Shown here: positions 19,310 through 27,386 of the stretch, piece by piece
Numbering within the stretch: the first letter of the stretch is position 1
Layout: each line of letters opens with the position of its first letter
Notes under the pieces: generated by a model
The model's database searches: none
Told to the model about the DNA's origin: nothing
What the model saw: only the letters and a program-made list of their open reading frames with translations
Source of the DNA: Sphingopyxis italica
GTDB taxonomy: Bacteria > Pseudomonadota > Alphaproteobacteria > Sphingomonadales > Sphingomonadaceae
Assembly: GCF_011926545.1 (NCBI RefSeq)
Contig: NZ_JAATIT010000003.1
Location: 496,001 to 560,000, forward strand
Reading direction: 5' to 3'
Length of the DNA: 64,000 nt
Made by a program: the position numbers and the translations under genes

Positions 19310-19415
19310 CTCCCCTCCCATTCATGGGAGGGGTCGGGGGAGGGCCTGTTTCGACGCGACGGCGCGGGAGCGTCACATGCCCTCCCCTAGCCCCTCCCGC
19401 AAGCGGGAGGGGAAC
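19310..19415. repeat. GC-rich double-hairpin repeat between convergent genes
   Basis: Two hairpins, CTCCCATTCATGGGAG and CCCTCCCGCAAGCGGGAGGG, flank a centre, with a long-range pair GGGGGAGGGC/GCCCTCCCC. It fills the gap between the stops of the thiolase-like gene and the ALDH gene. A near-identical element with a different centre lies at 22985-23092, also between convergent stops, so a bidirectional terminator role is likely (inference). Confidence 0.8.
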
Positions 19416-22984: not shown

Positions 22985-23092
22985 TCCCCCCTCCCATTTA
23001 TGGGAGGGGTCGGGGGAGGGCCTGTCCCCGAACCGAAGTATTGAGAGAGCTACAAGCCCTCCCCTAGCCCCTCCCGCAAGCGGGAGGGGAAC
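22985..23092. repeat. GC-rich double-hairpin repeat between convergent genes (second copy)
   Basis: Same design as 19310-19415: hairpin CTCCCATTTATGGGAG, then CCCTCCCGCAAGCGGGAGGG, sharing both flanks almost base for base while the central 35 nt or so differs. It spans the whole gap between the acs stop and the Anbu stop. Confidence 0.8.
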
Positions 23093-23827
23093 TTAGAAAT
23101 GAAAGTCCGGCAGTTCGGCCAGCGCGATCCCCAGCGCCTCGGCCCAGCCGTTCGCGACGCTTTCGAAATAGGGGTCGTTGCGCTCGAAGCGGCGCTCGCG
23201 CACTGTGGTGAAGTCGTCGCGCTCATGGATTTTCAGGTCGATCGGCAGGTCCACCCCCGCATTCGCCCGGATCGTCGAATCGAACGAGACGCAGAGCAGT
23301 TTCACCGAATCCTCGAACGACATCGCGGGATCATAGGATCGCACGATGATCGGCCGGCCATATTTGGTCTCGCCGATCTGAAAAAAGGGATTATCCTCCC
23401 CCGCCTCGATGAAATTGCCTTCGGGATAGATCAGGAACAGCCGCGGTTCGGCACCCTTGATCTGCCCGCCGACGATCAGCGAGGCGCGGAACAGCGAATC
23501 CGCCGCGGATTGGCCCTCGTCGTTGTGGCGCATCACGATGTTGCGCAGCGTTTCGCCGACGATCGTCGCGACCGCGAACATCGACGGCGCCGCCAGGATC
23601 GACGGATGCCGCTCCTCGGGCGCCTTGGTGCGCTCGTCGAGCAGGCTCACCACGGCTTGCGTCGTCGCCAGATTGCCCGCCGACATCAGGGTGATCACGC
23701 GCTCGCCCGGCACGTGCCAGCTGCGCATCTTGCGGACCTGCGAAATGTCGTCGACGCCCGCATTTGTGCGGGTGTCCGACATGAACACCAGTCCCTTGTT
23801 CAACCGCATGCCGACGCAATAAGTCAT
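23093..23827 (-). CDS. Anbu proteasome-like (Ntn-hydrolase) peptidase
   Basis: A 244-residue protein starting MTYCVGMRLNKGLVFMSDTRTNAGVD. Removal of Met would expose Thr2 as the N-terminal nucleophile, with the Asp of SDTRTN and a later Lys region completing the proteasome-type Ntn fold. This is the Anbu (ancestral beta-subunit) group, related to HslV and 20S beta subunits; known members form open helical rings. No chaperone ATPase is adjacent. The ATG at 23827 is chosen because it places Thr at position 2. Last gene of the ATP-grasp operon, 46 bp after the transglutaminase stop. Confidence 0.92.
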   Translation of the reverse strand: MTYCVGMRLNKGLVFMSDTRTNAGVDDISQVRKMRSWHVPGERVITLMSAGNLATTQAVVSLLDERTKAPEERHPSILAAPSMFAVATIVGETLRNIVMRHNDEGQSAADSLFRASLIVGGQIKGAEPRLFLIYPEGNFIEAGEDNPFFQIGETKYGRPIIVRSYDPAMSFEDSVKLLCVSFDSTIRANAGVDLPIDLKIHERDDFTTVRERRFERNDPYFESVANGWAEALGIALAELPDFHF

Positions 23828-23873
23828 CGAATCCCGTATTCCCCGCCCGGAAAGTCCTGATCGTCCGGCCCGC

Positions 23874-24677
23874 TTATTGCTGGACCTGCAATTGGACAAC
23901 CAGATTTTCCTGCGCCGCACCATAGCGCATGCCGCGAACCGGGGCCGCATCGCGATAATCGAGCCCGGTCGCGACGCGAATATAACGCCGGTCGGGCGAG
24001 TGGCCGTTGCTGATATCGAACCCGATCCAGCCGATATGCTCGAAATGCGCCTCGGCCCAGCCGTGCGTCGCATCCTGACGCGTCCGGTCGTTCATCATCA
24101 GATAGCCCGAGACATAGCGCGCCGGATGCCCCAGATGACGCATCGCGGCGATGAAGATATGCGCATGGTCCTGGCACACGCCGCCCTCGCCGGCGAGCGC
24201 CTGCTCGACTGTCGTCTCGGCGTCGGTGACCCCGATCCGGTAAGGGAGCTTGTCGAGGATCAGCGCCGACAGCGCATGCGCCCGCTCGATGTCGTTCGCG
24301 AAATCGCGGCCGAGTTCGGCGGTCAGTGAGCGCACCCCGCGTCCCGCGCGCGTCAGCGGGGTGGGCCGCAGGAAGGTCCAGAGCGGCATCGCGCCGCGGT
24401 GCGGTCCGATCACGCCATCCCATGTGATCAGCTCGACTTCGCCGGTGCAGCGGATGACGAGTTCGCTCGTCCCGCCGTTTACCGCGATCAGATCGACGCC
24501 ATTGCCATGATGATCGGTATAATGAAGCTGCTGCGCGCCGCCCTCGATCTCGATCGTCCAGTCGTGGATCAGCTGCTGTCCCGGCCGTTCCTTTGGCGTC
24601 AGCTTGACCTGCTGCAGCGCGTAGCGGACCGGGCTGTCGTACCGATAATGGGTGATGTGTTCGACGCGCAGGCGCAT
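23874..24677 (-). CDS. Transglutaminase-like cysteine peptidase family protein
   Basis: A 267-residue protein with an N-terminal beta domain (RVEHITHYRYDSPVRYALQQVKLTP) and a transglutaminase-core catalytic triad: Cys in GEGGVCQDHAH, His in THGWAEAHFE, Asp in GFDISNG. Such proteins act as peptidases or amide-bond remodelling enzymes. The ATG at 24677 lies 2 bp after the alpha-E stop with GGAG inside that gene's end; a GTG two codons earlier (24683) is possible. It is the third gene in an operon with ATP-grasp, alpha-E and Anbu. Confidence 0.92.
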   Translation of the reverse strand: MRLRVEHITHYRYDSPVRYALQQVKLTPKERPGQQLIHDWTIEIEGGAQQLHYTDHHGNGVDLIAVNGGTSELVIRCTGEVELITWDGVIGPHRGAMPLWTFLRPTPLTRAGRGVRSLTAELGRDFANDIERAHALSALILDKLPYRIGVTDAETTVEQALAGEGGVCQDHAHIFIAAMRHLGHPARYVSGYLMMNDRTRQDATHGWAEAHFEHIGWIGFDISNGHSPDRRYIRVATGLDYRDAAPVRGMRYGAAQENLVVQLQVQQ

Positions 24678-24679
24678 AG

Positions 24680-25624
24680 TCACTCCACAAAACGGTAATC
24701 GCGCTCGATCTGCCGCGCGAGCGCGGCATTGGCGCGGAGGAAGTCGGTTATGAACTCGTGCAGCCCGCCGTCAAAGATCGACGCGATCGGGCGCGAGAGC
24801 CGGTCGCGGCTGATCGCCGTGCCCATTCGCACCGCCTCGGCCTCCTCGCCATAACTGCGCTGGAGCAGCCCGAGATTGTCGTTCATCTGATCGCAGCAGA
24901 AAGCGAGGCTGCGCGGCATCTGCTTGTAGAGGATCAGAAATTCGGCGATTTTCAGCGCGCTGATCTCGGTCCCATAGAGCCAGTGATAGGCGCGGTGCGC
25001 CGACACCGAGCGCAGGATCGTCTCCCACTGCACATTGTCGATCGAGCTGCCGATATGCGCGACCGACGGCAGCAGCAGATAATATTTGACGTCGAGGATG
25101 CGCGCGGTGTTGTCGGCGCGTTCGAGGAAGGTGCCGAGCCGTGCGAAATTATAGCCGTCGTTGCGCAGCATCGTACCCGAAAAGGTCCCGCCGACCTGCG
25201 CGCTCTGCCGCCGGATCGCCGCGAGCACATCGGGCAAATCATCCTCGCGCACCTGCCGCTTGAGCAGCGCGCCGAGCGTCATCCAACTCGTATTGACCGC
25301 CTCCCACACCTCGCGGGTCATATAGGTGCGCGCGGTGCGCGCATTGTCGCGCGCGCGCTTGACCACCGACAGGATGCTCGACGGATTGGCGGGATCGCGC
25401 AGCAGGAAATCGACGACGCGTTGCGAGATATAATCCTCGCCATGCGCCTGCCGGAACGCGAAATCCTGCCCCGCGGTGACGAGCACCGACCGCCATTCCG
25501 ACCGCGCGGTGCTCGACCGCGTCAGCGCGATGCGAAACCCCGCGTCGATCAGCCGCGCATTATTCTCGCTCCGTTCGAGATAGCGCGCCATCCAGTAGAG
25601 GCTGCCGGCGGTTTTCCCCAGCAT
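24680..25624 (-). CDS. Alpha-E domain protein (DUF403)
   Basis: A 314-residue almost wholly alpha-helical protein, beginning MLGKTAGSLYWMARYLERSENNARL, the signature of the alpha-E family, with FARLGTFLERADNTARILDVKYY in the middle as a second related helix pair. Its biochemical role is unknown. The family is nearly always encoded beside the circularly permuted ATP-grasp gene and a transglutaminase, as here. GGAGG inside the end of the ATP-grasp gene serves as its ribosome binding site; 5 bp separate stop and start. Confidence 0.92.
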   Translation of the reverse strand: MLGKTAGSLYWMARYLERSENNARLIDAGFRIALTRSSTARSEWRSVLVTAGQDFAFRQAHGEDYISQRVVDFLLRDPANPSSILSVVKRARDNARTARTYMTREVWEAVNTSWMTLGALLKRQVREDDLPDVLAAIRRQSAQVGGTFSGTMLRNDGYNFARLGTFLERADNTARILDVKYYLLLPSVAHIGSSIDNVQWETILRSVSAHRAYHWLYGTEISALKIAEFLILYKQMPRSLAFCCDQMNDNLGLLQRSYGEEAEAVRMGTAISRDRLSRPIASIFDGGLHEFITDFLRANAALARQIERDYRFVE

Positions 25625-25629
25625 CGCCG

Positions 25630-27069
25630 TCAGTCCTCCAGGACCCAGGTGTCTTTGGTCCCGCCGCCCTGGCTCGAATTGACCACCAGCGACCCCTTGC
25701 GCATCGCGACGCGCGTCAGCCCGCCGGGCGTGATCTTGATCCCCTGCGGCGACATCAGCACGAAGGGACGCAAATCCACATGCCGCGGCGCGAGCCCCGC
25801 CTTGGTGAAGATCGGCACCGTCGAGAGCGACAGCGTCGGCTGCGCGATATAATTGCGCGGGTTCGCCTCCAGCTTGGCACGGAAGGCCGCGATCTCCTTC
25901 TTGCTCGCCGCGGGGCCGACAAGCATCCCATATCCGCCCGACCCGTGCACTTCCTTCACCACCAGTTCGGGCAGCCGGTCGAGCACCTCGCGCAGATGCT
26001 CGGGTTCCGAACAGCGCCACGTCGGCACATTGGGCAGCAACGCCTTCTCGCCCGTATAGAATTCGATGATGTCGGGCATATAGCTGTAAAGCGCCTTGTC
26101 GTCGGCGATGCCCGTGCCCGGCGCGTTGGCGATCGTGATCGCGCCGGCGCGATAGACGTCCCAAATCCCCGGCACCCCGAGCACCGAGTCCGGCCGGAAG
26201 TTCAGGGGATCGAGGAAGTCGTCGTCGACGCGGCGATAGAGGACGTCGATCGGGGTATAGCCCTGCGTCGTGCGCATCGCGACGCGGCCATCGACGACGC
26301 GAAGGTCGTGCCCCTCGACCAGTTCGGCGCCCATCTGGTCGGCGAGAAAGCTGTGCTCGAAATAGGCGCTGTTGTGGATGCCGGGCGTCAGCACCGCGAC
26401 CGTCGGCGTGCCGTTGCAGGCGGGCGGCGCGCAGGCCGCGAGCGACTTCAGGAGGTTGAGCGGATAGTCGCCGACTTCGCGCACCGAAATCTTCGCGAAC
26501 AGCTCGGGGAACATCTGGAGCATCGTCTCGCGATTCTCGAGCATGTAGGACACGCCCGAGGGCGTCCGCGCATTATCCTCGAGCACATAATATTCGTCGG
26601 CGCCGGTCCGGACGATATCGATGCCGCTGATATGCGTATAGACCCCGCCCGGCGGGTCCATGCCCATCATCATCGGCAGAAAGGCCTCGTTGCGCGAGAT
26701 CAGCTCGACCGGCACGCGGCCGGCGCGCAAAATCTCCTGCCGGTGATAGATGTCGTGGAGGAAGGCGTTCAATGCGCGCACGCGCTGTTCGATCCCGCGC
26801 GACAGCCGCCGCCATTCGCTCGCCGCGATGATCCGCGGCACGACATCGAAGGGGATCAGCCGCTCGTCGGCTTCATCCTCGCCATAGACGTTGAAGGTGA
26901 TGCCGGTGGTGCGGAAAAACGCCTCCGCCTGCTGCGTCTTGCGCTGGATGCGCGCCGTATCCTCGCGGCCGAACCAGTCCGAATATTCGCGATAGGGCGA
27001 CCGGACCTCGCCCCCCTGTCCGGTCATCTCGTCGAAAAAATGAATGCGCCAGCCCTTTCCACGCAACAC
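25630..27069 (-). CDS. Circularly permuted ATP-grasp protein (CP_ATPgrasp_2)
   Basis: A 479-residue protein: FDEMTGQGGEVRSPYREYSDWF at the start, VPRIIAASEWRRLSRGIEQRVRALN, VLEDNARTPSGVSYMLENR and LVVKEVHGSGGYGMLVGP, all typical of the DUF404/407 permuted ATP-grasp family. ATP-grasp enzymes join a carboxylate to an amine, so this member is predicted to make or attach a peptide or amide; the substrate is unknown. The start is GTG at 27069 (the only nearby choice that keeps FDEM); the ribosome binding site is weak. First gene of the four-gene operon. Confidence 0.9.
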   Translation of the reverse strand: MLRGKGWRIHFFDEMTGQGGEVRSPYREYSDWFGREDTARIQRKTQQAEAFFRTTGITFNVYGEDEADERLIPFDVVPRIIAASEWRRLSRGIEQRVRALNAFLHDIYHRQEILRAGRVPVELISRNEAFLPMMMGMDPPGGVYTHISGIDIVRTGADEYYVLEDNARTPSGVSYMLENRETMLQMFPELFAKISVREVGDYPLNLLKSLAACAPPACNGTPTVAVLTPGIHNSAYFEHSFLADQMGAELVEGHDLRVVDGRVAMRTTQGYTPIDVLYRRVDDDFLDPLNFRPDSVLGVPGIWDVYRAGAITIANAPGTGIADDKALYSYMPDIIEFYTGEKALLPNVPTWRCSEPEHLREVLDRLPELVVKEVHGSGGYGMLVGPAASKKEIAAFRAKLEANPRNYIAQPTLSLSTVPIFTKAGLAPRHVDLRPFVLMSPQGIKITPGGLTRVAMRKGSLVVNSSQGGGTKDTWVLED

Positions 27070-27249
27070 GCCACCGGTCCGGCCGCGATGCTTAGGGCGT
27101 CCGCGGCCCCATAGTTCCTGCCTGCTGCGTCGCTTGTCTGGCTACGCGGCCCTCAAGCTTATGAAGGCGATGCTAATCGCGCCCGCGCACCTTGGCAAGC
27201 AGGCTTGTGGGGCCGATTGATACGGTAACATCAGGGGGTTGCGACCATC

Positions 27250-27378
27250 TAGCCCCTCCCCTTCAGGGGAGGGGTTGGGGTGGGGGTCATCGGCCTTGCG
27301 TAAGGCCGATGACCCCCACCCGCTGCGACTAAGCCAGCAAGCTGGCAAGCCTCGCTGCCTCCCCTGAAAGGGAGGGAT
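27250..27378. repeat. Nested GC-rich inverted repeat downstream of secA
   Basis: Contains CCCCTCCCCTTCAGGGGAGGGG, a central hairpin GGGGGTCATCGGCCTTGCG / TAAGGCCGATGACCCCC, and a right arm CCTCCCCTGAAAGGGAGGG. This lies inside the 317-bp gene-free stretch 27070-27386 between secA and the ATP-grasp operon. The remaining part of that stretch (27070-27249) should hold the operon promoter, but I cannot point to -35/-10 boxes. Confidence 0.75.
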
Positions 27379-27386
27379 GGATTGCG

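Follow-up and report, generated by a model that had tools for sequence, protein, structure and literature searches.

The operon of Anbu, a protein related to the proteasome, has been described in Yersinia bercovieri and Pseudomonas aeruginosa by two papers (PMC6376114; PMC5666114) that both credit Iyer 2009. The operon encodes a circularly permuted ATP-grasp enzyme, the helical protein Alpha-E, a transglutaminase-fold protein and Anbu. We analysed a copy of it in a 64,000-nucleotide stretch of the Sphingopyxis italica genome (positions 496,001 to 560,000 of contig NZ_JAATIT010000003.1, assembly GCF_011926545.1), called the window hereafter. The copy in the window agrees with the published operons in its four families, their order, the Thr nucleophile and the lack of an AAA+ gene within the operon, and no difference in the genes was found; a sigma-54-like site, present upstream in a fifth of the scanned relatives, is missing here. 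The operon kind is already published and the window holds a standard member, an ordinary and intact copy of what is known from other bacteria. The features on which we concentrate here, namely the internal duplication of Alpha-E, the parallel residue changes in ATP-grasp and Alpha-E and the near-obligate pairing of fused with unfused forms of these proteins, were not found stated in the part of the literature that was covered.

Two other arrangements invite comparison. RimK/RimB and RloA-RloB-RloC resemble the window in placing an ATP-grasp ligase beside a peptidase, with a transglutaminase-fold protein as well in Rlo, but their ATP-grasp is RimK-like, the peptidase is aspartic and the transglutaminase is membrane-bound and inactive, so that the likeness is one of working principle only (PMC12239564). 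A sister cluster, built around a fused ATP-grasp-Alpha-E protein with a small and often also a large transglutaminase, has the same ATP-grasp and Alpha-E families as the window; its transglutaminase triads are kept in 27 of 28 rows while the ATP-site residues of the fusion are replaced.

Results

The four genes of the window all lie on the minus strand, from 27069 to 23093, with intergenic gaps of 5, 2 and 46 base pairs (bp) (Table 1). An earlier note on this DNA had reported this tight same-strand packing, and re-translation of the sequence reproduced it exactly; the gene identities and their order were also right, the Pfam matches of all four proteins exceeding the curated cut-off of each family. 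The threonine that the note placed at position 2 of Anbu was confirmed by translation and by alignment of relatives, and its statement that the combination is known and its substrate unproven agrees with PMC6376114 and PMC5666114. The genome has one Alpha-E gene, so this four-gene set is the only one of its kind there and the sister cluster is absent.

The order of the window is kept in 56 of 80 named relatives, which were found through ATP-grasp and some of which are cut by contig ends, and the combination is for this reason not a product of chance. The nearest of these 80 is Sphingomonas ursincola, with 80% identity in ATP-grasp, in a set that may omit very near genomes; 57 of 60 sampled congeners have Alpha-E. 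In a sample of the class (115 genomes) Alpha-E was present in 40 genomes and Anbu in 30, all of them Alpha-E genomes (hypergeometric 2e-19), and in a sample of the phylum (200 genomes) Alpha-E was present in 112 and Anbu in 69, with both in 68 of the 69 (hypergeometric 5e-22); the two samples overlap and their genomes are treated as independent despite kinship, so both probabilities overstate the association. Of the 68 phylum genomes with both, at least 60 have Anbu no more than 10 kb from their best-matching Alpha-E, and in the other eight the two are apart yet co-occur, on different contigs in G042, G229 and G358. The dependence is one-sided: Anbu is almost never found without Alpha-E, even when unlinked to it, while many Alpha-E genomes have no Anbu.

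In the fetched class-sample and named-relative loci that hold both, ATP-grasp directly precedes Alpha-E, whether split or fused. Fusion into one protein accounts for 53 open reading frames, 18 in class-sample loci and 35 in the phylum sample, with the ATP-grasp part of one (L060) spread over two frames. In a FastTree phylogeny of 66 ATP-grasp rows a single branch (support 100) separates the fused proteins from the others. All 18 class loci have a small transglutaminase near the fused gene, and 11 have a large protein that starts as a transglutaminase; in L064, the only one checked, this large protein contains DUF2126, a domain whose annotation is putative amidoligase. The fused gene hardly ever occurs by itself: of the 18 class genomes that have it, 16 also contain an unfused pair (the other two genomes are 84% and 78% complete), and so do 35 of 35 phylum genomes as judged by score and frame length. 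Anbu is found in the fetched fused loci only beside unfused neighbours.

The ATP-grasp of the window is of type 2 by its profile and by its residues, since at the ten putative ATP-site positions compared it has the residues that every one of 39 unfused rows shows. These ten, which by analogy with other ATP-grasp enzymes would serve the ATP or metal site, are largely lost from the 49 fused rows: E164, N166, D432 and N464 are kept in none, D323 and K325 in one each, R168 in two, G378 in four, G379 in six and K372 in nine. Position 166 is R in 34 of these rows, position 168 is Q in 38 and position 323 is E in 48. Other residues (R96, D151, D165, E238, R279, D287, R434 and D473) are kept in at least 90% of fused rows. 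Because some of the replacement residues are themselves conserved, the fused family looks like one with a rewired ATP site and not like a case of simple decay. An actinobacterial fusion on a Tsukamurella plasmid has E164A, N166R, R168Q, D323E, K325P and K372L, with D in place of E238. On that plasmid (L214:1238-7356) aspS and a DUF389 gene precede the fused protein and its transglutaminase.

Alpha-E changes in parallel. Its N94, R96, N111, W44, D178 and W200 are present in 37 to 39 of 39 unfused rows and in only 0 to 3 of 16 fused ones, R92 is kept in 7 of the 16, and the ER core stays. That core appears once in each half of the protein (R14 with E17-R18, and E168-R169), and since the halves (residues 1-130 and 131-314) align with each other by hhalign (probability 99, E 6e-18, 123 columns), Alpha-E is, judged from its sequence, an internal duplication. 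The model of the window's Alpha-E is all helical, with a mean predicted local distance difference test (pLDDT) score of 95.1 and a predicted template modelling (pTM) score of 0.92; no solved relative emerged from sequence comparison (best E 0.34) or from a Foldseek search at E<=0.001. For ATP-grasp the only solved relative at E<=0.001 is 3n6x (E 3.9e-214), titled 'Putative glutathionylspermidine synthase', which the PF14403 family profile spans over its full length and for which we know of no activity.

An AlphaFold2 model of one fusion (L180; 800 residues, 75-row alignment) reached a pLDDT of 92.8 and a pTM of 0.91, a value that would be hard to attain if the two domains moved freely, and the ATP-grasp (480 residues) and Alpha-E (300 residues) parts are accordingly predicted to be placed firmly together as one rigid body; the model is of the sister protein and was judged by its global pTM, which lessens its weight for the window. 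From the constant gene order together with the fusion, the predicted close packing and the residues that changed in step, we consider it likely that ATP-grasp and Alpha-E work as one ligase of which Alpha-E is a subunit. Alpha-E, to which the earlier note could assign no role, can thus be described more sharply, since it behaves as part of a ligase in its co-occurrence, its fusion and its residue changes. In the unfused pair of the window the same assembly would form by analogy. The ATP-grasp of the Y. bercovieri operon frees orthophosphate from ATP (PMC6376114), which fits a ligase that lacks its true substrate.

Anbu of the window is Anbu-1-like, with a Thr nucleophile directly after Met and equivalents of Asp17 and Lys32(33). 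All 18 aligned proteins share the corresponding T2, D18 and K33, and each of the 87 Anbu domains with a profile match from position 1 or 2, divergent ones included, has Thr as its second residue (77 MT, 9 VT, 1 LT). Solved relatives are 5loy, 5nyj, 5nyf, 5nyw and 5lox. The catalytic Thr is N-terminally exposed in crystals and in mass spectra (PMC5666114). Against the S1 pocket published there (T20, F30, T48, L52, S55), the window has T21 and L53, with S49 for T48, T56 for S55 and V31 for F30, counting the published residues from Thr1 and with no P. aeruginosa sequence in the alignment. Pfam finds no AAA+ unfoldase among the four genes of the operon; hslU elsewhere in the genome was not searched for. 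The suggestion of the earlier note that Anbu, lacking an unfoldase, would handle peptides and not folded proteins is conjecture: PMC5666114 points in the opposite direction on the strength of inhibitor binding, and PMC6376114 detected no cleavage of standard peptidase substrates. A second proteasome-family gene of the genome (G000:C2:591461-591970, L176) is HslV-like by eye.

Bpt and the ClpS/ClpA pair are components of the N-degron pathway, and genes for them lie near some relatives of the operon. In six class-sample loci (L035, L038, L039, L040, L045 and L050) a Bpt-like gene follows the unfused pair on the same strand, directly downstream of Alpha-E, its ATE_N and ATE_C domains having been checked in L039; in L053 such a gene is near the operon on the opposite strand. 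Eight genomes, six of them those of Bpt-neighbour loci, have a divergent, unlinked Anbu (L163-L170), and in five of these eight loci (L163, L165, L167, L168 and L169) it is a few kb from clpS and clpA; three genomes (G015, G040 and G079) combine the clpS/clpA-adjacent Anbu with the Bpt neighbour. Wider synteny extends across these loci and the neighbourhood may, for that reason, be inherited gene order only. These divergent proteins resemble the published Anbu-2 in having I (V in one case) in the place of T20 and Arg residues near position 50 (PMC5666114).

The transglutaminase-fold protein of the window, whose solved relative is 3isr, has the complete Cys-His-Asp triad (C168, H205, D221), and the triad columns hold C in 46, H in 50 and D in 49 of 50 aligned rows. 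Of the 18 Anbu-linked operons in the class sample, counting that of the window, 13 keep all four genes in order on a single strand, and L055 has Anbu on the opposite one.

Regulation was approached through promoter motifs and published expression data. A sigma-54-type motif was scored in a simple way, with a consensus and weights of our own choosing, at a threshold of 85% of the maximum. Sites above it were found upstream of 28 of 138 ATP-grasp genes (fused, unfused and related loci together) compared with 52 of 2235 random stretches (2.3%; Fisher 4e-16), and permuted motifs gave a mean of 2.8 and at most 12. Before the other genes such sites are few: 2 of 140 for Alpha-E, 3 of 137 for transglutaminase and 1 of 86 for Anbu. 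That they stand mostly before the first gene speaks for a single transcription unit in the relatives and not for one in the window itself. The sites agree with published expression under nitrogen limitation. In Pseudomonas putida on nitrate as compared with ammonium, PP_2685 (Anbu) is higher by a log2 value of 4.4 and PP_2688 (ATP-grasp) by 4.0 (PMC8050072), and the Burkholderia cenocepacia cluster I35_5080-83 (DUF404/407, DUF403 and two transglutaminase-like proteins) depends on NtrC and sigma-54 (PMC5491218). COG3484 is within a predicted sigma-54 regulon (PMC12316311) and marine metagenomes show an association with urea metabolism (PMC3597751). A point against the link is that work cited in PMC5666114 found expression unaltered under various other conditions. 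On these grounds the use of the operon under nitrogen limitation in many lineages seems probable.

For S. italica we regard the same use as doubtful. The 330 bases upstream of the window's operon hold no sigma-54-like site above the threshold (best 15.9 of 20.9, the mean for their own shuffled versions being 15.7) and no NtrC-like match, so the link to nitrogen is not to be carried over to this organism. One weak sigma-70-like match is at chance level. The genome does have rpoN.

Table 1. Coordinates of the operon in the window, and the fused reading frames found in other genomes
Feature	Position	Strand	Remarks
Circularly permuted ATP-grasp type 2 ligase, 479 amino acids (aa)	25630..27069	-	GTG start; Pfam PF14403 (CP_ATPgrasp_2) 1.4e-165
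Alpha-E, 314 aa, all-helical, apparently internally duplicated	24680..25624	-	Pfam PF04168 2.8e-88
Transglutaminase-fold protein, 267 aa, Cys168-His205-Asp221	23874..24677	-	Bact_transglu_N PF08379 7.7e-20; Transglut_core PF01841 7.2e-20
Anbu (Anbu-1-like), 244 aa, starts Met-Thr-Tyr	23093..23827	-	Pfam Proteasome 3.8e-8
Region upstream of the operon, as far as the preceding gene of that strand (ends 27387)	27070..27386	-	promoter motif scans
Fused ATP-grasp-Alpha-E reading frames	L037, L043, L057, L058, L060, L061, L062, L064-L074 (class); L179-L213 (phylum)		

The start of ATP-grasp is ambiguous between GTG at 27069 and TTG at 27066, and an alternative ATG at 27027 would remove D13 and E14, of which E14 is conserved. 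The frame of Anbu is open further upstream (326 aa), and the start adopted here is the one common to relatives. By eye, the gene preceding the operon is presumably secA and the convergent gene after it presumably encodes an acetyl-CoA synthetase. A G+C-rich palindrome, CCCTCCC-N6-GGGAGGG, for which the chance expectation is none, occurs five times in the window (19313-19332, 19392-19411, 22989-23008, 23069-23088 and 27254-27273), including two pairs with a spacing of about 80 bp.

Discussion

The best explanation of the operon, and one to which we give an even chance, is an ATP-driven amide ligation module that comes with its own amide-breaking enzymes. ATP-grasp would activate a carboxylate as an acyl phosphate and join it to an amine, while Alpha-E would be a subunit of this ligase, probably holding or closing the substrate/ATP site, and not a separate activity. 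Anbu, an N-terminal nucleophile (Ntn) hydrolase whose Thr1 would be exposed once Met is removed, would cleave or recycle what the ligase makes, and we put this action of Anbu on the product of ATP-grasp and Alpha-E at slightly under even. The transglutaminase-fold Cys enzyme would carry out hydrolysis or transfer on an amide of the same pathway and would be replaceable, in genomes with a sister cluster probably by the transglutaminase of that cluster. The direction of the transglutaminase and Anbu steps, like the service of the module to nitrogen-short cells, is something that we infer.

Several observations weigh against such a module. A pull-down with Anbu as bait gave no four-protein complex, Anbu did not stimulate phosphate release by ATP-grasp, and no peptidase activity of Anbu was seen with standard substrates (PMC6376114). 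Of the evidence against a tight machine of four proteins, the negative results of the pull-down and of the peptidase assays weigh most; they do not speak against a pathway. The parallel change of Alpha-E residues could alternatively have been caused by divergence of the fused clade; the sister is far diverged, so that residue loss there is by itself no proof of contact. Nine of the 30 Anbu matches of the class sample are unlinked and either divergent or partial, with E values from 1e-29 to 1e-45. In four of the 18 Anbu-linked operons (L026, L030, L033 and L056) Alpha-E is followed by Anbu without a transglutaminase in between, and beside the unfused pair of L023, L025, L034 and L053 the transglutaminase has lost its Cys, the column holding S, Y, P or G. 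An active transglutaminase is therefore not a fixed part of the system: the earlier note was right to count the protein as a member of the window's operon, where it is present with its triad, but it is less fixed than the note implied.

The genomes of seven of these loci (L026, L030, L033, L023, L025, L034 and L053) all contain the sister cluster (L068, L067, L066, L058, L064, L065 and L070), whose small transglutaminase keeps its Cys in 17 of 17 rows. In the class sample 15 of 21 unfused-pair loci from genomes lacking a sister cluster have a Cys-bearing transglutaminase beside the pair, compared with 3 of 13 from genomes that possess one (Fisher p 0.012, with five of 39 loci left out as uncertain and relatedness ignored). 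The transglutaminase of the sister cluster may serve both clusters, which would link the two in one pathway.

The amide-ligase module has to be weighed against readings that part Anbu from its neighbours or narrow the chemistry. Anbu could be a protein-degrading protease for turnover in nitrogen limitation, with the other three genes forming a separate biosynthetic unit that shares its regulation. Inhibitor binding fits a protein-degrading role and the S1 pocket is proteasome-like, the authors finding a role in peptide synthesis less likely (PMC5666114). Alpha-E occurs without Anbu in 10 of 40 class genomes and 44 of 112 phylum genomes, which shows that the ligase does not need Anbu, and one genome given as 100% complete (G258) has Anbu with neither ATP-grasp nor Alpha-E; both facts also count among those that speak against the module. 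On the other side, the operon has no AAA+ gene and several Anbu proteins are without detected peptidase activity (PMC6376114). Alpha-E is moreover present in 98 of 99 Anbu genomes (the two overlapping samples summed) even when the genes are unlinked, so that shared regulation alone is no explanation. We regard the protease reading as unlikely.

A small-molecule cycle like that of glutathionylspermidine synthetase/amidase, with a ligase that joins a peptide (for instance glutathione) to a polyamine or some other amine and with Cys and Ntn hydrolases that set the nitrogen free again, is compatible with the amide-ligase module, being a specific case of it. In favour of this cycle, glutathionylspermidine synthetase/amidase pairs a Cys amidase with a circularly permuted ATP-grasp, and the title of 3n6x points the same way, but that name is an annotation and not an assay. 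The nitrogen-linked expression fits (PMC8050072; PMC5491218), whereas no polyamine gene was noticed among the recurring neighbours in 56 fetched stretches, and we hold this specific cycle to be improbable as it stands. Lower still do we rate protein tagging, an idea traced in PMC6376114 to Iyer 2009 and Valas & Bourne 2008, in which ATP-grasp and Alpha-E, perhaps with the transglutaminase, attach a peptide or amino acid to proteins and Anbu removes the tag or degrades the tagged proteins. It draws on two amide-forming families beside a proteasome relative and on the one lineage with a Bpt-like transferase after the Alpha-E pair and a divergent Anbu near clpS-clpA; those Bpt and ClpS neighbours belong to a syntenic lineage, however, and may be coincidence, and no ubiquitin-like gene or unfoldase recurs at a set place among the reading frames of at least 70 aa in the 56 stretches, a size limit that shorter tag peptides would escape.

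The separate parts of the amide-ligase module can be drawn together into a bolder proposal, which we offer as speculation and think improbable as a whole. Alpha-E would be a co-catalytic, duplicated helical clamp in a new class of two-protein amide ligase that operates under nitrogen limitation. The fused sister, of ancient origin, would have given up its ATP site for another conserved set of residues (R166, Q168, E323), would work only alongside an active pair and would have passed its chemistry to the DUF2126 amidoligase. Anbu would be the dedicated hydrolase of the product, in which case the proteasome-like fold would here have begun as a hydrolase of amide metabolites or tags and not as a general protease.

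Anbu has been considered a potential forerunner of the proteasome, and the accounts consulted name no substrate or function for it. If Alpha-E does belong to the ligase and Anbu does act on the product, the hunt for that substrate would start from a two-protein enzyme and from nitrogen limitation instead of from random peptides, and the rewired fused sister would provide a natural comparison by which the residues of the ATP site may be separated from those of the substrate site.

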